From an uncultured Lachnospiraceae bacterium (GTDB lineage: Bacteria; Bacillota; Clostridia; Lachnospirales; Lachnospiraceae), in contig CADCQU010000075.1 in NCBI GenBank assembly GCA_902803635.1, positions 1-12,127 of the forward strand: 12,127 nucleotides of DNA, read 5' to 3'. Positions 2 to 11,896 of this stretch are shown in pieces. Numbering within the stretch: position 1 is the stretch's first letter; every line of letters begins with the position of its first letter. The position numbers and the translations under genes are program-made. Below the pieces are notes generated by a model. That model ran no database searches. It saw only the letters and a program-made list of their open reading frames with translations, and was not told the DNA's origin.

Positions 2-2161
2 CTGTACTACGGGCCGCGCCTCGTGGATACGGCCGGGATGGAGCAGGCGTTCTGCCTGAACGAGTTTCCGTTTTCACCGGCGGTCAACGAGCCTGACAAG
101 GTCCGTTTCACGCAGATTTTTCCATATGAGTACGGCTGCTTCGGGACGGGGGACTACCGCGAGGCGTGCCTTGACGTGGCAAATGCCCACGGGATGCGGG
201 GCGTGGAGCTCTCGTTCCGTTCTTTTGAAGTAATCCCGGGAAAGGTGGCTTTGGTGCATTTGCCGCATACAAGAGGGGACGAGGGCTGCTGCGATACGCT
301 GGACGTTCTGATGGCGGACGATGCCCTCGGGCTTGACGTGCATCTACTGTATACGGTTTATAAGGATTTGGACGCGATTGTAAAGAGCGTTAAGGTGGTG
401 AACCGCGGCGAGGCTTCCGTCACGCTAAGGCGGGTCCTGTCTGGGCAGCTTAATTTGGAGTTGGAGGCCCAGGAAATTCTGACGCTCCACGGCTCCTGGG
501 GGCGGGAACGCACCATCACGCGGCAGCCTCTTAGGACGGGTTCCGTCACGGCCGAGTCGCTGCGAGGCATTTCCAGCGCCGAGGATTCCCCGTTCCTCGC
601 GATCCTTGCGCCCGGAACGACGCAGACCATGGGAGAGGCGTGGGGGATGAGCCTGATTTATTCCGGCAACTTCCTCGCGAAGGCGCAGGTCGACCAGAAC
701 GGCCGTCTCCGCTGCGTGATGGGCATCCACCCGGAGACATTTTCCTGGAGCCTTGCGCCGGGCGAGTCCTTCCAGTCGCCGGAGGTCGCCCTCGTCTATT
801 CGGCGGAGGGGCTTGGGCAAATGACCCGCACCTACCATGACCTGTATCGCAGCCATCTCATTGAGAAGCGGTGGCTCACCATGGACCGTCCGATCCTGGT
901 CAACAACTGGGAGGCGACGGAAATGCATTTTGACACGGATGTCCTCATCGGCTTTGCCAGGGCGGCGAAGGAGGTGGGGCTTGACATGCTGGTCATGGAC
1001 GATGGCTGGTTCGGGCACCGCGACGACGACACCTCCTCCCTGGGCGACTGGTTCGTGGACGAGAAGAAGCTCCGTGGCGGGCTTGCAAAGCTCGTTGAAG
1101 AGGTCAACGCGATGGGGCTTAAGTTCGGCATCTGGATCGAGCCGGAGATGGTCAGCGAGGATTCGGAGCTGTTCCGCGCCCATCCGGACTGGCGGTTCGA
1201 GCTACCCGGTCGGAAGCCGGGCGCGATGCGGAAGCAGTACGTGCTGGACCTTACGCGGCCCGAGGTCTGGGACGGCGTGTACAGCCAGCTCCATGCCACC
1301 CTCTCCTCGGCAAATATCGCCTACGTCAAATGGGACATGAACCGGCATTTGTCGGATGTGGGGTCGCTTCTTCGGGATGCCGTCGGGCAGGGAGAGCTCC
1401 TGCACCGCTACGTGCTGGCAGTCTATCGGATGCAGGAACAGCTCCTGAAGGATTTCCCGGACCTGCTCCTCGAAAACTGCTCCTCCGGCGGCGCCCGGTT
1501 TGACGCGGGCATGCTGTTCTACAGCCCGCAGATCTGGACAAGCGATGATTCGGACGCTATTGAGCGGCTGTCAATCCAGGAGGGGACGTCGCTCGTCTTT
1601 CCGCTGTCCACGATGGGGGCTCATGTCTCGGTCTGCCCGAACCAGCAGACCGGAAGGAGCGTGCCCTTCAACACAAGGGCCAAGGTCGCCATGGCGGGAA
1701 CCTTTGGCTATGAGATGGATGTCCGTAACATGCTTCCGGAGGAGAAGGCGCAGATCCCCGGTCAGGTGGAGCTGTTCCGGAGGGTACACCCGGTCGTCCG
1801 GGAGGGGAATTATTACAGAATCGCCTCGTTCCGGGAGAACCATTCCCATGACTGCTGGATGGTCGTAAAAAAGGACCGGTCGCTTGCGTTTATGACCTTT
1901 GTGCAGGTGCTGGCTACGACGAACCGGCCGGGGATGCGCGTGCGGATGCAGGGCCTTGACCCGGAGGCGACCTACGAGGTGACCTGCGACTATGCCGGCG
2001 CGCTTGCCACGAGCAACGGGCAGTCGTCGACGGACGAGGCGACCGGGACGCTCCGGAAGCTGGGCCGCTTCAACGGCGACACTCTGATGAAGCAAGGCAT
2101 CATCGTCCCGAGGGTCCGGGGGGACTACCAGGCGCTCCTGTACGAGGTTAAAAAGGTATAA
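2..2161 (+). CDS. alpha-galactosidase, glycoside hydrolase family 36 (5' end cut by window)
   Basis: Hydrolyses terminal alpha-1,6-linked galactose from melibiose, raffinose-family sugars or galactomannan pieces; no signal peptide is visible in the part present, so probably cytoplasmic. The frame is open from the first complete codon (position 2) and starts LYYGPRL, which resembles the family's LYFGKRL segment near the N-terminus, so only a few dozen residues should be missing; a GTG at 23 is unlikely to be the true start. Family signatures in order: NNWEAT, MDDGWFG, GIWIEPEMVSED, KWDMNR, ENCSSGGARFD and WTSDDSDAIERL. The KWDMN aspartate (codon 1334) matches the family nucleophile and the WTSD aspartate (codon 1544) the acid/base. 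They are 70 residues apart, the same spacing as D478/D548 of characterised GH36 enzymes (from memory). About 719 residues are visible against roughly 730-740 for the family. It reads as a separate unit from the operon downstream. Exact sugar specificity cannot be read from sequence. Confidence 0.95.
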   Translation: MYYGPRLVDTAGMEQAFCLNEFPFSPAVNEPDKVRFTQIFPYEYGCFGTGDYREACLDVANAHGMRGVELSFRSFEVIPGKVALVHLPHTRGDEGCCDTLDVLMADDALGLDVHLLYTVYKDLDAIVKSVKVVNRGEASVTLRRVLSGQLNLELEAQEILTLHGSWGRERTITRQPLRTGSVTAESLRGISSAEDSPFLAILAPGTTQTMGEAWGMSLIYSGNFLAKAQVDQNGRLRCVMGIHPETFSWSLAPGESFQSPEVALVYSAEGLGQMTRTYHDLYRSHLIEKRWLTMDRPILVNNWEATEMHFDTDVLIGFARAAKEVGLDMLVMDDGWFGHRDDDTSSLGDWFVDEKKLRGGLAKLVEEVNAMGLKFGIWIEPEMVSEDSELFRAHPDWRFELPGRKPGAMRKQYVLDLTRPEVWDGVYSQLHATLSSANIAYVKWDMNRHLSDVGSLLRDAVGQGELLHRYVLAVYRMQEQLLKDFPDLLLENCSSGGARFDAGMLFYSPQIWTSDDSDAIERLSIQEGTSLVFPLSTMGAHVSVCPNQQTGRSVPFNTRAKVAMAGTFGYEMDVRNMLPEEKAQIPGQVELFRRVHPVVREGNYYRIASFRENHSHDCWMVVKKDRSLAFMTFVQVLATTNRPGMRVRMQGLDPEATYEVTCDYAGALATSNGQSSTDEATGTLRKLGRFNGDTLMKQGIIVPRVRGDYQALLYEVKKV

Positions 2162-2179
2162 CCAATATTTCTATAATTT

Positions 2180-2350: not shown

Positions 2351-3742
2351 ATGAGTAATACACAAAGTGCGGCGGCCGGCCGGGTGAAGGCCCTGCTGGA
2401 CGCGAACAGCTTCGTCGAGATCGGTGCCGGGGTGAAGGCCCGCAGCACGGATTTCGGGCTCTCCGCCAAAGCCGAACCGGGCGATGGCGTCATCACCGGC
2501 TACGGCACGGTGAACGGGAGCCTCGTCTACGTCTACAGCCAGGACGCGGCGGTCCTCGGCGGGTCGATCGGCGAGATGCACGCCCGGAAGATCGGGCGCA
2601 TCTACGAGCTCGCCCGCAAGATGGGCGCGCCCGTGGTCGGCTTCCTTGACTCCACCGGTGTCCGCATCGAGGAGTCCGTGGATGCCCTCGACGCCCTCGG
2701 CTCCATCTACAACGCCCTCGTCACGGGCAGCGGCCTCATCCCGCAGATTGCGGTTGTCGCCGGCAGCTGCGGCGGCGGCCTTGCCTTCATCCCGGCCCTC
2801 TCGGACTTCGTCTTCATGACCGACAAGGCCGCGCTCTCCGTGAACTCCCCGGATGCCGTCGAAGGCAGCAGCAAGGACGTTCTGGACGTCTCCGCCCCCG
2901 CCTACCAGGCAGAGCAGGGCAACATTGACGTGTGCGGGAGCGAGGAGGAGGTCCTCGCCGGCGTGCGCGAGCTCCTTTCCTTCCTTCCGTCCAACAACGA
3001 GGACGGCGCCGAGGAAATCCCCTGCAACGACGACCTCAACCGCTCGACGGGCGCGCTTTCGAGCCTGACAAATGACGCGGCCGAGCTGGTGAAGGTGGTC
3101 GCGGACAACGGCATTTTCTTCGAGACCAAGAAGACCTACGGGAAGAACATGGTGACGGGCTTCGTGCGTCTTGCGGGCGCCACCGTCGGCGTGGTCGCCA
3201 ACCGCGGCGTGAAGGAAGTCATTTGCGGAACCTGCGCGAAAAAGGCCGCCGACTTCATCCGCTTCTGCGACGCATTTGACATCCCTGTCCTTACATTTGC
3301 CAATGTCGCCGGCTTTGCCCGCCATGAGAGAAATGAAAACCTTCTCCCGAAGGCCGCCGCTCGCCTCCTCTCGGCCTACACAAATGCGACCGTTCCGAAG
3401 GTGACGGTGGTGACGAAGAAGGCCCTCGGCAGCGCCAGCATCCTCATGGGTTCCCGCGCGGCCGGTGCGGACGTCGTCCTTTCCTGGCCGGACGCCACGA
3501 TCGGCGCGATGGATCCGAAGGCTGCCGGCAAGATTCTGGCCGCCGGACAGGATGCCGCCGCCATGCGCAAGGCCTCGGAGGCCTATGGCGCCCTTCAGGC
3601 AAATGTTGCTGCCGCTTCGGCGCGTGGTTTCGTTGACACCGTTATCGACGAGGCGGACACTCGGAAGTTCGTGATCGGTGCGCTGGAGATGCTGTACTCC
3701 AAGCGGGAGGAGCGTCCGGCCAAGAAGCACGGGACGATCTGA
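2351..3742 (+). CDS. divergent acyl-CoA carboxyltransferase subunit (MmdA/12S-like)
   Basis: 463 residues with the two crotonase-like halves of biotin-dependent carboxyltransferases (MmdA, transcarboxylase 12S, PccB). Such proteins move a carboxyl group between an acyl-CoA and biotin on a carrier protein in the cytoplasm. Supporting blocks: SFVEI (20-24), GVITGYGTVNG (46-56), LGGSIGEMHARKI (69-81), RIEESVDAL (105-113), ALSDF (149-153), FLPSNN (211-216), FIRFCDAFDIPVLTF (302-316) and ATVPKVTVVTKKALGS (346-361). It lacks about 45 N-terminal residues found in classical MmdA (about 510 aa). Active-site glycine motifs are changed: DSTGVRI for DSGGARI, SCGGGLAF for the PCAGGAVY type, LGSASILM for GGSY-type, and VAGFARHERNEN for VPGFLPGxxQE. 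ATG 2351 has GGAGG 7 nt upstream. First gene of the operon. The acyl-CoA substrate (methylmalonyl-, malonyl-, glutaconyl-CoA or other) cannot be assigned. Confidence 0.85.
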   Translation: MSNTQSAAAGRVKALLDANSFVEIGAGVKARSTDFGLSAKAEPGDGVITGYGTVNGSLVYVYSQDAAVLGGSIGEMHARKIGRIYELARKMGAPVVGFLDSTGVRIEESVDALDALGSIYNALVTGSGLIPQIAVVAGSCGGGLAFIPALSDFVFMTDKAALSVNSPDAVEGSSKDVLDVSAPAYQAEQGNIDVCGSEEEVLAGVRELLSFLPSNNEDGAEEIPCNDDLNRSTGALSSLTNDAAELVKVVADNGIFFETKKTYGKNMVTGFVRLAGATVGVVANRGVKEVICGTCAKKAADFIRFCDAFDIPVLTFANVAGFARHERNENLLPKAAARLLSAYTNATVPKVTVVTKKALGSASILMGSRAAGADVVLSWPDATIGAMDPKAAGKILAAGQDAAAMRKASEAYGALQANVAAASARGFVDTVIDEADTRKFVIGALEMLYSKREERPAKKHGTI

Positions 3743-3757
3743 AGAAAGGCGGCACTC

Positions 3758-4555
3758 ATGAGAAAAATGAAAAGATTGCTGGCCGTGCTTCTCCTGGCCG
3801 TGCTGACCGTCTTTGTGGCGACCGGCTGCGAGAAGACCGCCTCCCAGAAGGAGGAGGAGGCCATGGAGAATATCCGGGCCATGAATCTGGCTACCATCGA
3901 GAACCTTGCCCAGAACCAGATCGCGCCGGTGTTCACGCAGTTTACCTACGACCAGTTCGCGGCCGTGAAGGAACAGGGCGGCACCGTGTTCGGACCGCTC
4001 TTTGACAACGACATCGGCACCCGCTGGAAGGCCTTTAACGATGCCCACGGGATTGCGAAGACCGCCAACGTGGACGAGGTCATGCGGGACGGCTATGAGT
4101 ATACCGCCAGGATCATCCTGACGGGCGAGGACGACGTGCAGGAGGCCCTGACCATCACCTTCGATGAGGAGGGAACGCCCTACAAGTCCATCCTTCAGGC
4201 GTACTCGGACGATTCCAAGGAGACGCTTGGCTCGAAGATCGCCACCGCCGGCGGCAACACCGTGACCGGACTTCTGGTCGTGTTCTGCGTGCTGGTCCTG
4301 CTGTGCCTCATCATTTACTGCTTCAAATTCCTGCACCGCGAGCCGACGCCCCCCACGAAGAGGGAGGCGGCCCCCGCGCCTGCGGCTCCCGCCCCGAAGG
4401 CGGCCGCTGCGGCTCCCGCGGCTGTGACTGCCCCGGAGAATGACCCGGCGCTCATCGCCGTCATCGCCGCCGCGATCGCCGCGGCCGAGGACAAGCCGGT
4501 GGAAGGCTTCGTGGTACGGAAGATTAAGAGGATATCCAATACGAAAAGGCGCTGA
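3758..4555 (+). CDS. lipoprotein-OadG fusion, gamma-type subunit of a Na+-pumping decarboxylase
   Basis: 265 residues. Residues 1-24 form a lipoprotein signal (basic start, Leu/Val-rich core, lipobox ATGC with Cys24). Residues 25-168 would be an extracellular domain, possibly DUF3887-like; I do not recognise it firmly. One membrane helix spans about 169-191, followed by an Ala/Pro linker (about 195-226). The C-terminal segment 228-258 (DPALIAVIAAAIAAAED ... GFVVRKIKRI) matches the tail of OadG/MmdD gamma/delta subunits, which anchor the carboxyltransferase to the membrane beta subunit. Normal OadG proteins are about 80-120 aa and start at the membrane helix, so the first ~165 residues are an addition. 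An AAAGG-type site precedes the ATG by 8 nt, 15 nt after the previous stop. Predicted topology: lipid anchor and helix tether the outer domain at both ends, with the C-terminus inside. Confidence 0.8.
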   Translation: MRKMKRLLAVLLLAVLTVFVATGCEKTASQKEEEAMENIRAMNLATIENLAQNQIAPVFTQFTYDQFAAVKEQGGTVFGPLFDNDIGTRWKAFNDAHGIAKTANVDEVMRDGYEYTARIILTGEDDVQEALTITFDEEGTPYKSILQAYSDDSKETLGSKIATAGGNTVTGLLVVFCVLVLLCLIIYCFKFLHREPTPPTKREAAPAPAAPAPKAAAAAPAAVTAPENDPALIAVIAAAIAAAEDKPVEGFVVRKIKRISNTKRR

Positions 4556-4588
4556 AGGCGCGCATCATAAGCAAAAGGAGAAATTACA

Positions 4589-4969
4589 ATGAAAAACTAT
4601 ACGATTACTGTAAATGGCGTCGCCTACAGCGTTACCGTTGAGGAAGTGGCCGCCGGCGCGGCTACCGTGGCTGCTCCGGTCGCGGCTCCCGTGGCTGCCC
4701 CCGTTGCGGCTCCGGCTCCTGCGGCCGCCGCTCCGGCCGTGCAGGGAAGCGCGGGCTCGGTGGAAGTGACCGCCCAGGTCCCGGGCAAGGTCTTCAAGCT
4801 CGTCGCCTCCGTCGGCCAGGCCGTCAAGGCCGGCGACACCGTCGTCATTCTCGAGTCCATGAAGATGGAAATCCCGGTCGTCGCCCCGCAGGACGGCACC
4901 GTTGCCAGCATCAACGTCTCTGCCGGCGCTGCCGTCGAATCCGGTGACCTTCTGGCTACCCTGAACTGA
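4589..4969 (+). CDS. biotin carboxyl carrier protein of the decarboxylase complex (MmdC/1.3S-like)
   Basis: 126 residues. A short N-terminal beta segment (KNYTITVNGVAYSVTVEEV) leads into an Ala/Pro/Val linker with a PVAA period of four (residues about 27-51), then a biotinyl domain (about 57-126). The biotinylation motif ESMKMEIPV places the modified lysine at K92, 35 residues from the C-terminus as usual for this domain. The protein carries carboxyl groups on biotin between the carboxyltransferases and the membrane subunit. AGGAG lies 8 nt before the ATG. This is the only biotin carrier in the operon although two carboxyltransferases are encoded, so both may share it. The flexible linker fits a swinging-arm role. 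Confidence 0.93.
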   Translation: MKNYTITVNGVAYSVTVEEVAAGAATVAAPVAAPVAAPVAAPAPAAAAPAVQGSAGSVEVTAQVPGKVFKLVASVGQAVKAGDTVVILESMKMEIPVVAPQDGTVASINVSAGAAVESGDLLATLN

Positions 4970-4982
4970 ATGGAGGGCTTCC

Positions 4983-6128
4983 ATGAATATTCTTGACACG
5001 CTGTCAAATCTCTTACAGCAGACGGCCTTCATGAGCCTGACGTGGGGCAACTACGTCATGATCGCGGTGGCCCTGGTGTTCCTGTATTTGGCGATTCGAA
5101 AGGGCTATGAGCCGCTGCTCCTGGTGCCGATCGCGTTCGGTATGTTGCTGGTCAACATTTATCCGGACATCATGATGGCACCGAGCGATTCGACAAATGG
5201 CGTCGGCGGCCTCCTGCATTATTTCTACCAGCTCGATGAGTGGTCGATTCTTCCGTCCCTCATCTTCATGGGCGTCGGCGCGATGACGGACTTCGGTCCG
5301 CTCATTGCGAACCCGATTTCCTTCCTCATGGGCGCGGCCGCGCAGTTCGGCATTTACATCGCCTACTTCCTGGCCATTGCCCTCGGCTTCAACGGCAAAT
5401 CGGCGGCCGCCATTTCCATCATCGGCGGCGCGGACGGGCCGACCTCCATCTTCCTGGCCTCGAAGCTGGGACAGACGCAGCTATTAGGGCCCATTGCGGT
5501 GGCGGCCTATTCCTATATGTCGCTGGTCCCGATCATTCAGCCGCCGGTTATGAAGCTCTTTACGACTGAGAAGGAGCGGAAGATCAAGATGGATCAGCTC
5601 CGCAGCGTTTCCAAGCTGGAGAAGATTCTCTTCCCGATCATTATCACCATCGTGGTCTGCATGATCCTGCCGACCACGGCACCGCTCGTCGGCATGCTGA
5701 TGCTGGGCAACCTCTTCCGCGAGAGCGGCGTCGTGCACCAGCTCACGGAGACTGCCTCCAACGCCCTGATGTACATCGTGGTCATCCTTCTCGGAACCTC
5801 GGTCGGCGCCTCGACCTCCGCGGAGGCCTTCCTGAATGTCAGCACGCTGAAGATCGTCGTCCTCGGCCTCGTGGCCTTTATCTTCGGAACCTTCGGCGGC
5901 GTCATGCTCGGGAAACTCCTATGTCATTTGACACATGGGAGGATCAACCCGCTCATCGGGTCCGCCGGCGTGTCCGCCGTGCCCATGGCGGCCCGCGTCT
6001 CCCAGAAGGTGGGCGCGGAGACCGACCCGACCAATTTCCTGCTCATGCACGCGATGGGACCGAACGTTGCCGGCGTTATCGGAACGGCCGTCGCCGCCGG
6101 AACGTTTATGGCTATTTTCGGGATATAA
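4983..6128 (+). CDS. Na+-transporting carboxybiotin decarboxylase, beta subunit (OadB/MmdB/GcdB family)
   Basis: 381 residues, strongly hydrophobic with many membrane helices, the usual length for this family. The beta subunit decarboxylates carboxybiotin in the membrane and exports Na+. Diagnostic features: GGADGPTSIFLASKL with D151, equivalent to the essential Asp203 of Klebsiella OadB; and GRINPLIGSAGVSAVPMAARVS, where N322 and S331 keep the nine-residue spacing of Klebsiella N373/S382; then LMHAMGPNVAGVIGTAVAAG near the C-terminus. GGAGG lies 6 nt before ATG 4983, 13 nt after the biotin carrier stop, indicating translational coupling. A TTGACA-CGC-TGTCAA stem-loop (4993-5007) falls just inside the start. 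All known catalytic residues that I can check are present, so the protein should be functional. Confidence 0.95.
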   Translation: MNILDTLSNLLQQTAFMSLTWGNYVMIAVALVFLYLAIRKGYEPLLLVPIAFGMLLVNIYPDIMMAPSDSTNGVGGLLHYFYQLDEWSILPSLIFMGVGAMTDFGPLIANPISFLMGAAAQFGIYIAYFLAIALGFNGKSAAAISIIGGADGPTSIFLASKLGQTQLLGPIAVAAYSYMSLVPIIQPPVMKLFTTEKERKIKMDQLRSVSKLEKILFPIIITIVVCMILPTTAPLVGMLMLGNLFRESGVVHQLTETASNALMYIVVILLGTSVGASTSAEAFLNVSTLKIVVLGLVAFIFGTFGGVMLGKLLCHLTHGRINPLIGSAGVSAVPMAARVSQKVGAETDPTNFLLMHAMGPNVAGVIGTAVAAGTFMAIFGI

Positions 6129-6161
6129 CATACAGTCGGAAAAATTGATGGAGAATACGAA

Positions 6162-7574
6162 ATGGGAAATAATGTGAAAAAGAAGGTGCAGATTACGGAG
6201 ACGGTTCTCCGCGACGCGCACCAGAGTCTGATTGCGACACGCATGACCACCGACGAGATGCTGCCGGCGGTTCCGATGCTCGACGAGATCGGCTACCGCG
6301 CGGTGGAGTGCTGGGGTGGCGCGACCTTTGACGCGGCCCTCCGCTTCCTCCACGAGGATCCGTGGGTACGCCTCCGGAAGTTCCGCGCAGGCTTCAAGAA
6401 GACGAAGCTGCAAATGCTTTTCCGCGGGCAGAACATCCTTGGCTACAAGCCGTATCCGGATGATGTCGTGGAGTACTTCGTACAGAAGTCCGTGGCAAAT
6501 GGTATTGACGTGATCCGTATTTTTGACTGCCTGAACGACCTCCGGAACCTGGAGACCGCCGTGAAGGCCGCGAAGAAGGAAGGCGCGGAGGCGCAGGTCG
6601 CCCTGAGCTACACGCTGGGCGACGCCTACACGCTTGACTATTGGAAGGAAATGGCCCGCGGCATCGAGGAAATGGGCGCGGATTCCATTTGCATCAAGGA
6701 CATGGCCGGCCTCCTCGTCCCGAAGGCGGCGACCGAGCTTGTCACGGCCCTGAAGCAGGGCTCGAACCTTCCGATCGAAATGCACACCCACTATACCTCG
6801 GGCGTGGCTTCCATGACCTACATGAAGGCCGTCGAGGCGGGCGCGGACATTCTCGACTGCGCGATTTCGCCGTTCGCGCTGGGCACCTCCCAGCCGGCGA
6901 CCGAGGTCATGGTCGAGGCCTTCCGCGGGACCGAGTACGATACGGGCCTCAACCTTGAAAAGCTTGCCGAGATCGCCGAGTATTTCCGCCCGATCCGCGA
7001 GAAGTATCTGGAAAATGGCCTTATGAACCCGAAGAACATGGGCGTGAACATCAAGACGCTGCAGTACCAGGTTCCGGGCGGCATGCTCTCGAATCTGACG
7101 AGCCAGCTTGCCCAGCAGCACGCCGAGGACAAGTTCTACCAGGTGCTCGAGGAGGTTCCGCGCGTCCGCAAGGACATGGGCGAGCCGCCGCTTGTCACGC
7201 CGTCCTCACAGATCGTCGGCACGCAGGCCGTTATGAACGTCCTCACCGGCAAGCGCTACATGGTCGTCCCGCAGGAGACGAAGGACATGTTCCTCGGCCG
7301 CTATGGTAAGACCACGAAGCCTTTTGATCCGGAGATTCAGAAGCAGGTCATTGGCAATGAGACGCCGATCACCTGCCGTCCGGCCGACCTTCTGGAGCCG
7401 AAGCTCGCCGAGTACGAGGAGAAGATCGCCGCGTACAAGCAGCAGGACGAGGATGTCCTTACCTACGCGCTCTTCCCATCAGTCGCGATGGACTACTTCC
7501 AGTACCGCGACGCCCAGCAGACGGGCGTCGACGCCAAAGCCGCCGACACCGAGAACAAGGCGTATCCGGTGTGA
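6162..7574 (+). CDS. pyruvate/oxaloacetate carboxyltransferase, OadA/transcarboxylase 5S-like, no biotin domain
   Basis: 470 residues. Moves a carboxyl group between oxaloacetate/pyruvate and carrier biotin. TIM-barrel motifs of the OadA/PycB/5S family: ETVLRDAHQSLIATRM (13-28), VECWGGATFDAALRFL (48-63), RGQNILGYKPYPDDVV (88-103), RIFDCLNDL (119-127), IKDMAG (178-183) and EMHTHYTSG (206-214). Metal ligands D18, H208, H210 and the carbamylated lysine K179 correspond to D17, H207, H209 and K178 of characterised OadA (from memory). The C-terminal conserved region includes MGVNIKTLQYQVPGGMLSNL. Classical OadA (about 590 aa) ends in a biotinyl domain; here the protein stops after the carboxyltransferase part with a polar tail, so it must use a separate carrier, most simply the product of 4589-4969. 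GGAG is 8 nt before the ATG. Last gene of the operon. Confidence 0.94.
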   Translation: MGNNVKKKVQITETVLRDAHQSLIATRMTTDEMLPAVPMLDEIGYRAVECWGGATFDAALRFLHEDPWVRLRKFRAGFKKTKLQMLFRGQNILGYKPYPDDVVEYFVQKSVANGIDVIRIFDCLNDLRNLETAVKAAKKEGAEAQVALSYTLGDAYTLDYWKEMARGIEEMGADSICIKDMAGLLVPKAATELVTALKQGSNLPIEMHTHYTSGVASMTYMKAVEAGADILDCAISPFALGTSQPATEVMVEAFRGTEYDTGLNLEKLAEIAEYFRPIREKYLENGLMNPKNMGVNIKTLQYQVPGGMLSNLTSQLAQQHAEDKFYQVLEEVPRVRKDMGEPPLVTPSSQIVGTQAVMNVLTGKRYMVVPQETKDMFLGRYGKTTKPFDPEIQKQVIGNETPITCRPADLLEPKLAEYEEKIAAYKQQDEDVLTYALFPSVAMDYFQYRDAQQTGVDAKAADTENKAYPV

Positions 7575-7668: not shown

Positions 7669-7704
7669 AGCCGCCGCAAGGAGAAGTCCTTGCGGCGGCT
7701 TTTT
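7669..7704 (+). terminator. strong intrinsic terminator of the decarboxylase operon
   Basis: A perfect 14-bp stem (AGCCGCCGCAAGGA with its complement) closes a GAAG loop at 7683-7686 and is followed by TTTTT at 7700-7704. It lies 95 nt after the stop of the OadA-like gene, with no other gene between, so it should end the operon transcript. Confidence 0.92.
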
Positions 7705-9945: not shown

Positions 9946-10130
9946 GAAAGAACTCGATGCTTCTTCTGGTGAAGGAGAGAAAAAACGCCGGGTGTGAAAG
10001 AGAAGGATGCTTTCTCTGGTGAGAGAGAAAACGGTAGATGAAAAGACAAGCAATATTTCGATTGAACAAAAGAGCAAATGTTGGAGAAAAGTCAACATAT
10101 GCTTTTTTCTGGCGAAGGAAAGGGGAAGAG
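9911..10130 (+). repeat. imperfect ~50-bp tandem repeat starting in the 3' end of cmk
   Basis: Units at 9911-9960 and 9961-10010 align without gaps and agree at about 36 of 50 positions by hand count. A shortened unit starts at 10011 (TTTCTCTGGTGAGAGAGAAA), and a further partial copy lies at 10099-10119 (ATGCTT..TTCTGGCGAAGGA). Shared core: ATGCTTCTTCTGGTGAAGGA-like, followed by GAGAGAAAAAACG. The first unit lies in cmk and includes its stop codon. The last copy supplies the purine-rich site used as ribosome binding site of the next gene. No frame across it looks like a conserved protein; it appears non-coding and degenerating. Confidence 0.65.
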
Positions 10131-10131
10131 G

Positions 10132-10449
10132 ATGTTAAAGATCTATGGAAGCGAGATGTGCCCGGACTGCGTGGCCTGCAAGAGGAATTTTGACGCTTAC
10201 GGGATTTCCTACGAGTTTCTGGACGTAACCAAGTCGTTGCGGCATTTGCGTGCGTTTCTAATCCTGCGCGACAGCGAGCCGGTATTTGACAGGCTCAAAG
10301 CCATCCACGACATCGGCCTTCCGGGAATCGTCCGGGAGGACGGCACGGTCTTCACGGACTGGGAAGGCTATTTGCAGGAGAAGGGCCTCCCTGTGCTTTC
10401 CGGCGATCCCTCCGGCTCTGCCTGCTCGCTTGACAGGAAGGGATGCTAG
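10132..10449 (+). CDS. glutaredoxin-related protein (COG4545-like)
   Basis: 105 residues with a thioredoxin-fold start MLKIYGSEMCPDC, in which C10-P-D-C13 is the redox pair. Further blocks ACKRNFDAYGISYEFLDV, FLILRDSEPVFDRLK, GLPGIVREDGTVFTDW and a Cys-containing tail GSACSLDRKGC (C98, C105) match small glutaredoxin-like proteins of Firmicutes. Likely a cytoplasmic thiol-disulfide exchange protein; its partner is unknown. ATG 10132 is preferred because AAAGGGGA lies about 5 nt upstream and the family begins here; an in-frame ATG at 10078 would add 18 residues unlike the family. The next reading frame, a gene remnant, begins immediately after the stop. Confidence 0.85.
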   Translation: MLKIYGSEMCPDCVACKRNFDAYGISYEFLDVTKSLRHLRAFLILRDSEPVFDRLKAIHDIGLPGIVREDGTVFTDWEGYLQEKGLPVLSGDPSGSACSLDRKGC

Positions 10450-10450
10450 A

Positions 10451-10726
10451 GGAAGCTGCCTGGTCCTCAATGAAGGAAATTGGAAGCTACTGACGGAGCA
10501 TTACACGGATCGCATTTTCTTCATCGATGAGGGAAATGGGTCCCTTCGGATGAAGGAATTTGCGGAAACCGTGAAGGGGGCGGACAATTACTTTGTCATC
10601 GTCACCCGAGAAAGCCTTCCCCAACTGTCGTACAGCATCGAAGAAGTTTATGCTCTGCGTGAGGGAAAAGACTTCGGAAAATACCGCGTTCCCAAGCGTG
10701 TATATAACGAGATGTACCAGATTTAA
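10451..10726 (+). pseudogene. C-terminal remnant of an accessory-region protein (N-terminus lost)
   Basis: The frame ending at TAA 10724 reads CLVLNEGNWKLL...IFFIDEGNGSLRMKEFAETVKGADNYFVIVTRESLPQLSYSIEEVYALREG...YNEMYQI. From memory this resembles the C-terminal part of larger P-loop-type proteins found in Clostridial accessory regions, with the VIDE/NYYVIVTRE/LPYSVEEIY pattern. No P-loop or N-terminal half precedes it, and the recognisable part begins just after the glutaredoxin stop codon. No start codon with a good ribosome binding site is visible; the first in-frame ATG is at 10550, inside the motif block. The best reading is a deletion remnant. Expression of a shortened product cannot be excluded. 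Confidence 0.6.
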
Positions 10727-10751
10727 GGGAAGATGGAGAGGAGGGGATTCG

Positions 10752-11411
10752 ATGGGGGCGCTTACGCTGTACCATGGCTCCCGAGGGGGGCTTAACGGGG
10801 AGATTCGACCGGAGAGCCGAACCCGGTGTGATTTTGGAAAAGGATTTTACATGGGGACAAATAAGGACCAGGCACGATCGCTTGTGGCAAATGTCCCGAA
10901 CCCGTACTATTACGAGCTTCGCTTTGATTTGGATGCAATCCCCTCCGAGCGGATTTTGCGCCTCGAAGATATGGAGTGGGCGTATTTTGTTCTTTATAAC
11001 CGGGGCAGGCTACAGGAAGTGAAGGACTCGGCCCTCTATCGTCACTGTCGGCAACTTGCAGATAATAAGGATGTGATTATTGGGGCAATTGCGGATGATG
11101 CGATGAACGAAACGATGAACCGTTTTATCGCCGGGATCATTACCGACAAGGCTTTTCTTGAGAGTATCCGGGCCTTGGATTACGGTGTGCAGTACGTTGC
11201 GAAGACTCTTACGGCTTGCGGCTGTATCACGATTGTGCAAGAGAAGCTCCTTCGGAAAGGAGAGCTTGCGGCGGCGGTTCGTCTGGCAAATGAACGCCGA
11301 GCGGCGGGGGGAAGGATTGCAGAGGAAATGCAGCGCAAATATCGCCGGGAAGGAAGATACTTCGATGAGCTGATGCAGGATATCCGGGAGAATCGTATCG
11401 TTTTTGCTTGA
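10752..11411 (+). CDS. DUF3990-type protein, possible ADP-ribosyltransferase-like fold
   Basis: 219 residues. Starts LTLYHGSRGG (H8), then DFGKGFYMGTNKDQAR (27-42), a variable middle, DVIIGAIADDAMNETM (107-122) and a Q147-containing DYGVQYVA segment, followed by a charged helical C-terminus (about 165-212). The order YHGS, FGKGFY, DVIIGxxADD is the pattern I associate with DUF3990, which has been discussed as ADP-ribosyltransferase-like; that part is inference and no catalytic activity is shown. ATG 10752 is chosen because GGAGAGGAGGGG lies just upstream and the family starts here. An open frame reaching further upstream would begin inside the broken gene. The small gene at 11456 follows after 44 nt, in the arrangement of a two-gene module. 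Confidence 0.7.
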   Translation: MGALTLYHGSRGGLNGEIRPESRTRCDFGKGFYMGTNKDQARSLVANVPNPYYYELRFDLDAIPSERILRLEDMEWAYFVLYNRGRLQEVKDSALYRHCRQLADNKDVIIGAIADDAMNETMNRFIAGIITDKAFLESIRALDYGVQYVAKTLTACGCITIVQEKLLRKGELAAAVRLANERRAAGGRIAEEMQRKYRREGRYFDELMQDIRENRIVFA

Positions 11412-11455: not shown

Positions 11456-11896
11456 ATGAACCGAGAGGAACGATACATTTGCAACCAGCAGAAGGAGTTG
11501 TTTGAATATGCAAAGGAGCACTTTTCGGATGTGCGGGCATTTGCCGAGAAATTTATGACATCCGATTTTTGCAACCGGTCGCTAGACCAGCCGTACTCGG
11601 TGGATCAATTTGCCGATATCATGAACTGGCTCGAATTTTTGGAAATGGAGTTTCCTCTGGAGGAGACGGAGCAGGGAGATGTGACAATTTCATATGCAGA
11701 GGCAGGCTGGATTGGGTTTGTATATCGGCATTTGCACTTTGCAACGGGGCTGGCAAGCTCCGAGCTGGTGAACAAGGTGCCATTTGACAATCTGCTCATC
11801 GGCTACGCGGGACTGCACACGGTGGATGAGGACATGGCGGTGGAGATTCTCTCGGAAGATTTTGGGCTGCCGATGGTAAAGGAGACCGAGGAGTGA
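11456..11896 (+). CDS. conserved accessory protein, probable partner of the DUF3990-type gene
   Basis: 146 residues, acidic and mostly helical by composition, with no signal peptide or membrane segment. Visible blocks are EKFMTSDFCNRSLDQPYS (31-48), EAGWIGFVYRHLHFATG (82-98) and YAGLHTVDEDMAVEIL (117-132). I recall small proteins with this YS/WIGYLYRYWHY/FHTLD pattern near DUF3990 or DUF3791 genes in Clostridia, but have no function for them. GGCGGAAGG lies directly before ATG 11456, a close but usable ribosome binding site. A role as antitoxin or accessory partner of the preceding protein is a guess based only on the neighbourhood. Confidence 0.7.
   Translation: MNREERYICNQQKELFEYAKEHFSDVRAFAEKFMTSDFCNRSLDQPYSVDQFADIMNWLEFLEMEFPLEETEQGDVTISYAEAGWIGFVYRHLHFATGLASSELVNKVPFDNLLIGYAGLHTVDEDMAVEILSEDFGLPMVKETEE

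Follow-up and report, generated by a model that had tools for sequence, protein, structure and literature searches.

A 12,127-nucleotide stretch of DNA from an uncultured Lachnospiraceae bacterium (contig CADCQU010000075.1 of assembly GCA_902803635.1; hereafter the window) carries on its + strand, at 2351-7574, an operon of five open reading frames (ORFs) encoding, in order, an MmdA-like carboxyltransferase (A), OadG (G), a biotin carrier (C), OadB (B) and a biotin-less OadA (P). We propose that this operon specifies a membrane-bound biotin exchange hub in which the carrier would be loaded and unloaded at three places: at the OadA-like P, between oxaloacetate and pyruvate; at the MmdA-like A, between an acyl-CoA and its carboxylated form; and at OadB, where interconversion of carboxybiotin and CO2 would be coupled to Na+. 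Because biotin carboxylase is not required, such a hub could work in any of three modes: Na+-pumping oxaloacetate decarboxylase, oxaloacetate:acyl-CoA transcarboxylase and, reversed, Na+-driven carboxylase. In relatives that retain fatty-acid synthesis but lack accB and accC, it would pass carboxyl groups to AccDA or another acyl-CoA carboxyltransferase to yield malonyl-CoA, taking them from oxaloacetate via P or from CO2 via B at the expense of the Na+ gradient. In the window's genus it would serve another purpose; the simplest is to decarboxylate oxaloacetate while exporting Na+, or to do the reverse. We regard this explanation as a whole, including malonyl-CoA supply in the accB/accC-less relatives, as probable, though well short of certain.

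The five ORFs are separated by 15, 33, 13 and 33 bases, a purine-rich stretch precedes every one of their starts, and Pfam and NCBIfam searches matched Carboxyl_trans, OAD_gamma, Biotin_lipoyl, OAD_beta and HMGL-like plus PYC_OADA in gene order (Table 1). A sequence-only reading of this DNA had described five tightly spaced genes that join two carboxyltransferases and a Na+ pump to one biotin carrier, and both the domains and a search of the genome bear this out. Within the window's genome (2.4 Mb, 411 contigs, 88.65% complete), A is the sole Carboxyl_trans match, and Biotin_lipoyl matches two proteins: the operon carrier and one of 567 aa encoded on contig C48. The latter reads as a lipoyl-bearing dihydrolipoyl dehydrogenase, lying near other 2-oxoacid dehydrogenase genes; a second biotin carrier, which the earlier reading had named as the finding that would speak against sharing, was thus not found in this assembly, the C48 protein being lipoyl-type by sequence. 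It is likely that one carrier is common to both carboxyltransferases in this genome, and we infer that the five proteins form a single complex. Biotin carboxylase, searched for in all genomes with its C-terminal domain model (Biotin_carb_C) alone, gave no match in the window's genome, in line with the earlier claim that none is encoded in the window, so carboxyl entry by the usual ATP route is excluded within this 88.65% complete assembly. Searches of the same assembly for AccD, FabD and MM_CoA_mutase were also empty.

The subunits resemble 12S, 1.3S and 5S proteins plus a pump, and might be read as a methylmalonyl-CoA:pyruvate transcarboxylase or decarboxylase for propionate fermentation, like those of Propionibacterium or Veillonella. 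We consider this very improbable. Methylmalonyl-CoA mutase was found in none of 25 genomes of the window's genus and was missing from 40 of 41 relatives searched, which leaves a tie to methylmalonyl-CoA unsupported, and A scores 413.2 bits against the mmdA model TIGR01117, far under the curated cut-off of 998.8. By sequence A is in a subgroup of its own among MmdA-like carboxyltransferases. Our best guess for its substrate pair, argued from the absence of other candidates, is acetyl-CoA/malonyl-CoA. Across the 25 genus genomes, Biotin_carb_C was found in 7 and FabD in 7; twelve reach 90% completeness, 9 of them are without both, and 8 of these 9 retain the operon-type A. Malonyl-CoA supply, first suggested by the lone Carboxyl_trans match, was dropped as an explanation for the window's own genome, FabD being missing there and in 18 of the 25. 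On gene content, then, neither succinate-pathway propionate nor fatty-acid synthesis accounts for retention of the operon in this genome.

The operon recurs throughout the family. We examined 68 operon loci of relatives, situated around Carboxyl_trans or Biotin_lipoyl matches and with L076 excluded as a different cluster, and found the full A-G-C-B-P order, for which the sequence-only reading had suggested a search, in 61. Among the seven remaining loci, three end at a contig edge (L048, L056, L060), two have a PCC-type transferase instead (L075, L105), and two, L072 (G157) and L115 (G073), keep A, G, C and P with OadB gone, the make-up of a pump-free transcarboxylase. When 120 family genomes, one per genus, were scored by an operon-type A match (two of them partial) or, in one genome, by C-B-P, 103 were operon-positive; loci were read in 39 of these, the window included. 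Judged by these matches, the five-gene set is common across the Lachnospiraceae rather than rare, and its uniqueness is not supported.

Twenty-four of the 120 genomes have FabD and no Biotin_carb_C match. The operon was present in 21 of them, the three operon-negative genomes being only 60-67% complete, and at 90% completeness or above it was found in 17/17 (14 with the whole order, G080 and G137 interrupted by contig ends, and G073 without B). No full-length carrier besides that of the operon occurs in 19 of the 21, with weak partial matches in G119, G120 and G148; each of three control genomes has the operon carrier plus another at the accB position. The weight of the relatives' evidence lies in their fatty-acid clusters, not in operon presence alone. 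Two control clusters read fabD-fabG-fabF-accB-fabZ-accC-accDA. We found accB or accC in none of the clusters of 18 FabD-positive, Biotin_carb_C-negative genomes and accDA, fused or split into accD and accA, in 11 (G080, G094, G100 and G129 of the 17 were left out of this reading). Most of the 11 are arranged as fabK-fabD-fabG-fabF-fabZ-accDA, with no space for accB or accC, and the retained AccDA exceeds the cut-offs for both AccA (TIGR00513) and AccD (TIGR00515) in the three cases tested. Whole-genome searches of named genomes, several of them cultured strains of about 5 Mb including Parablautia muri and P. intestinalis (listed with no completeness figures, and with L158 outside the searches), recovered Biotin_carb_C in 4/4 with and 0/9 without accB/accC genes. 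Each of the nine has a single full-length carrier, always inside the operon, and one adds a partial match.

We also scanned public genomes with an AccDA alignment. At least 587 loci matched, and of the 80 that scored best, 40 have accC, 34 have a readable cluster without it, and 6 were too short to judge. On an unrooted FastTree tree of 87 rows, the accB/accC state changes 2 times, compared with 28 in shuffles; a branch with full support sets 42 accB/accC-less rows apart, and one further such row, L081, on a long branch, lies elsewhere. That the whole AccDA branch shares this state, with only two changes over the tree, argues that the loss of accB and accC is not an assembly gap. AccDA requires a carboxylated biotin carrier. 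In genomes that have neither accB nor accC, in which no biotin carboxylase was found and whose one carrier belongs to the operon, the carboxyl groups used by AccDA are likely to come from the operon. Beyond anything in the sequence-only reading, it appears from these gene contents to stand in, in some relatives, for biotin carboxylase and biotin carboxyl carrier protein.

Such relatives could obtain their malonyl-CoA elsewhere, with the operon uninvolved: a biotin carboxylase may have gone unrecognised, malonate may be activated, or fatty acids may be taken up while the synthesis cluster lies idle. In favour of this alternative, our searches were confined to the Biotin_carb_C domain. We nevertheless think it unlikely, since accDA, whose established chemistry needs a carboxylated carrier, is kept with above-cut-off scores, the operon carrier is so often the sole full-length one, and the accB/accC-less state is common to an entire AccDA branch. 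Two sets of loci stand beside these. In G034 (L094 and L043), a 100% complete genome from another family, separate accD and accA remain in a fatty-acid cluster without accB and accC, and the sole Biotin_lipoyl match is the operon carrier. At L076 (G057), L095 (G073) and L096 (G014), fabD has a PCC/MmdA-type carboxyltransferase gene beside it or close by, seemingly a further substitute for AccDA.

Several observations weigh against the exchange hub and its role in malonyl-CoA supply. The operon is also present in 68 of the 78 family genomes in which FabD and biotin carboxylase occur together, and at 90% completeness or above its frequency without AccC (17/17) does not differ significantly from that with AccC (62/71, p = 0.20) because it is nearly universal in the family. 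Seven of the 18 FabD-positive, Biotin_carb_C-negative clusters are without accDA, and 6 of these 7 genomes carry a PCC-type transferase elsewhere. A biotin carboxylase of strongly diverged or unrelated sequence could escape the C-terminal domain model. Two of the 21 genomes (G112, G073) own a second carrier beside another OadB, and the OadB-less operon of G073 sits in a genome where no biotin carboxylase was found. Fatty-acid supply cannot explain why the window's genus retains the operon, as most of its genomes lack FabD and biotin carboxylase. In B, Arg304, reported to be essential in OadB, is replaced by Gln253. Finally, the accessible parts of PMC5414155 and PMC8303734 report that oxaloacetate decarboxylase activity was undetected in Clostridium thermocellum, the bearer of a related cluster. 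As to the second carriers, L236 (G112) and L237 (G073) place them with the second OadB in the vicinity of a longer, distantly related carboxyltransferase (25-29% identical to the PCC type), perhaps a glutaconyl-CoA decarboxylase.

The properties of A bear on another alternative, that the operon is a plain Na+-translocating oxaloacetate decarboxylase with a separate carrier, in which the MmdA-like protein is structural or vestigial and has ceased to transfer carboxyl groups. Consistent with this, A has the lowest mean pairwise identity of the four aligned enzymes (0.57, as against 0.77 for the OadA-like protein and 0.81, the highest, for OadB), the family that best matches the OadA-like protein bears the name oxaloacetate decarboxylase alpha, and of A's motifs CGGG[LM] and G[ST]A (residues 140-146 and 359-366) the second oxyanion motif has Ser or Thr for the PCC-type Gly in 52/56. 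However, the reading frame, Gly142 and Gly360 are intact in 56/56, FabD-less genomes included, and A is still the first operon gene in the 61 fully ordered loci. We hold this alternative as a whole to be unlikely. A dead active site was likewise considered and not established, since the motif differs yet is consistent throughout the subgroup.

P, which the earlier reading had described as lacking a biotin domain, gave no Biotin_lipoyl match, and it passes the cut-off of PRK12331 (Table 1), a model that already covers OadA without a biotin domain, so that this absence is in itself known. It aligns end to end with pyruvate carboxylase beta, OadA and transcarboxylase 5S, falls below the cut-off of the 5S model PRK12330 (554.9 against 827 bits), and contains LRDAHQSL, IKDMAG and HTHYTSG, which we take to be motifs of OadA-type keto-acid carboxyltransferases. 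The biotin lysine of C is residue 92 (codon 4862-4864). B scores 474.4 bits against TIGR01109 (cut-off 190.6) and retains the Na+-binding residues of the solved Salmonella OadB, Asp203, Ser382 and Asn412, as D151, S331 and N361, as well as its Glu40 and Asn311; the roles of these residues are taken from the accessible text of PMC7274780.

The lipoprotein nature of the OadG-like protein and its extra N-terminal domain were absent from the sequence-only reading. G is a predicted lipoprotein with lipobox Cys24 (alignment of 27), followed in prediction by a helix-rich, four-stranded extracytoplasmic N-terminal domain, one membrane helix and the OadG C-terminal part. The structure model has a mean pLDDT of 82.4; a search of solved structures with G gave no significant match, and a fold search with the model gave weak NTF2/cystatin-like matches, none at E <= 0.001. 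Some relatives match DUF3887 with 31.0 and 30.8 bits, just short of the cut-off of 31.8.

The earlier framing of the operon between a promoter and a strong terminator stands for the terminator downstream, with its 14-pair stem, but not for the promoter: the promoter-like site is weak, chance alone predicting 3.9 such sites against the 5 found. Nor do terminator-like sites, taken together, exceed the chance level (10 found, 12.5 expected).

Table 1. Genes of the window operon and its flanking signals
Feature	Position	Strand	Details
Promoter-like site, weak	2148-2177	+	TTAAAA, 18, TATAAT
A, MmdA/12S-like acyl-CoA carboxyltransferase, 463 aa	2351-3742	+	Carboxyl_trans 335.9 bits
G, OadG-like subunit, 265 aa	3758-4555	+	OAD_gamma at residues 163-243
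C, biotin carrier, 126 aa	4589-4969	+	Biotin_lipoyl 63 bits; ESMKME
B, OadB Na+-translocating carboxybiotin decarboxylase, 381 aa	4983-6128	+	OAD_beta 511.9 bits
P, OadA/5S-like keto-acid carboxyltransferase without biotin domain, 470 aa	6162-7574	+	PRK12331 742.9 bits, cut-off 718
Intrinsic terminator downstream of operon	7669-7700	+	14-pair stem, 10 G-C pairs, T-rich tail

It is possible, though doubtful, that many Lachnospiraceae use the hub in the reverse direction, with OadB spending the Na+ gradient rather than ATP to make carboxybiotin and one carrier serving both anaplerotic pyruvate carboxylation and malonyl-CoA formation by AccDA or the MmdA-like protein. If so, it would be a Na+-driven substitute for both biotin carboxylase and pyruvate carboxylase. 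Such pumps are reportedly reversible, carboxylating pyruvate and acetyl-CoA, to go by the title of Dimroth and Hilpert 1984. The distribution of pyruvate-carboxylase-length proteins fits a reversed hub: they occur in 7/120 genomes, 4 of them without the operon, as against 13/113 of the rest (p = 0.008, with kinship uncorrected).

Parts of this arrangement have precedents, compared here on the accessible parts of the cited papers. The Enterococcus faecalis OadA-OadB-OadD-OadH enzyme is a Na+-translocating oxaloacetate decarboxylase with a separate carrier (PMC6193673); as in the window, its biotin acceptor is apart from OadA and it has an OadB pump and a further small subunit, proposed in E. 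faecalis to be OadG-like. Unlike it, the window operon adds an acyl-CoA carboxyltransferase and a lipoprotein OadG with an extra domain, and the window is without citrate genes. With the Na+-translocating methylmalonyl-CoA and glutaconyl-CoA decarboxylases (PMC7145394, PMC7274780) the operon shares an acyl-CoA carboxyltransferase, a separate carrier, an OadB-type pump and an OadG-type subunit; it differs in having a second, keto-acid carboxyltransferase and an acyl-CoA enzyme of a different subgroup, in a genome without the mutase. Like the Propionibacterium transcarboxylase (12S, 5S, 1.3S), it has both kinds of carboxyltransferase, one carrier and no biotin carboxylase, whereas OadB and OadG are present and the substrate is probably not methylmalonyl-CoA.

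Closer to the malonyl-CoA proposal, Clo1313_1523-1526 of C. thermocellum is described as a putative transcarboxylase that serves as malonyl-CoA source in a metabolic model of a species without standard acetyl-CoA carboxylase (PMC5414155), and strain BL-4 has a 12S/5S/1.3S-like cluster (PMC7764203). The likeness, drawn by description and not by sequence, is to the idea of oxaloacetate-fed malonyl-CoA or to the kind of cluster; in contrast to a model assumption for C. thermocellum and a single strain for BL-4, the present case is a comparative loss of accB and accC with accDA kept in many genera. The accessible literature also reports oxaloacetate decarboxylase from all 62 butyrivibrio genomes, with acetyl-CoA carboxylase subunits patchy there. 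Giardia has a fused transcarboxylase (PMC8700996). As far as it is described there, this likewise combines a keto-acid and an acyl-CoA carboxyltransferase with one carrier domain but, unlike the window operon, is a single fusion protein of a eukaryote and lacks a Na+ pump. It is reportedly the subject of Jordan et al. 2003, by title, and is said to have been proposed to act from oxaloacetate to malonyl-CoA. Our literature search, which did not cover subscription papers, returned no paper connecting accB/accC loss in Lachnospiraceae with the A-G-C-B-P operon.

Bacterial fatty-acid synthesis is generally held to start from acetyl-CoA carboxylase with its ATP-using biotin carboxylase. If the exchange hub acts as proposed, part of a dominant gut family would make its lipids by another energy route, dependent on Na+ or oxaloacetate, and its accB/accC-less members should be indifferent to biotin-carboxylase inhibitors; cultured accB/accC-less strains exist, among them Parablautia muri D42-62 and Parablautia intestinalis D8-82. 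Automatic annotation labels the operon oxaloacetate or methylmalonyl-CoA decarboxylase, by which propionate predictions can be misled.

Elsewhere in the window, a short glutaredoxin-like protein with a CPDC motif is encoded at 10078-10449, and a DUF3990 gene of uncertain start at 10593-11411 is followed by a small gene at 11456-11896.

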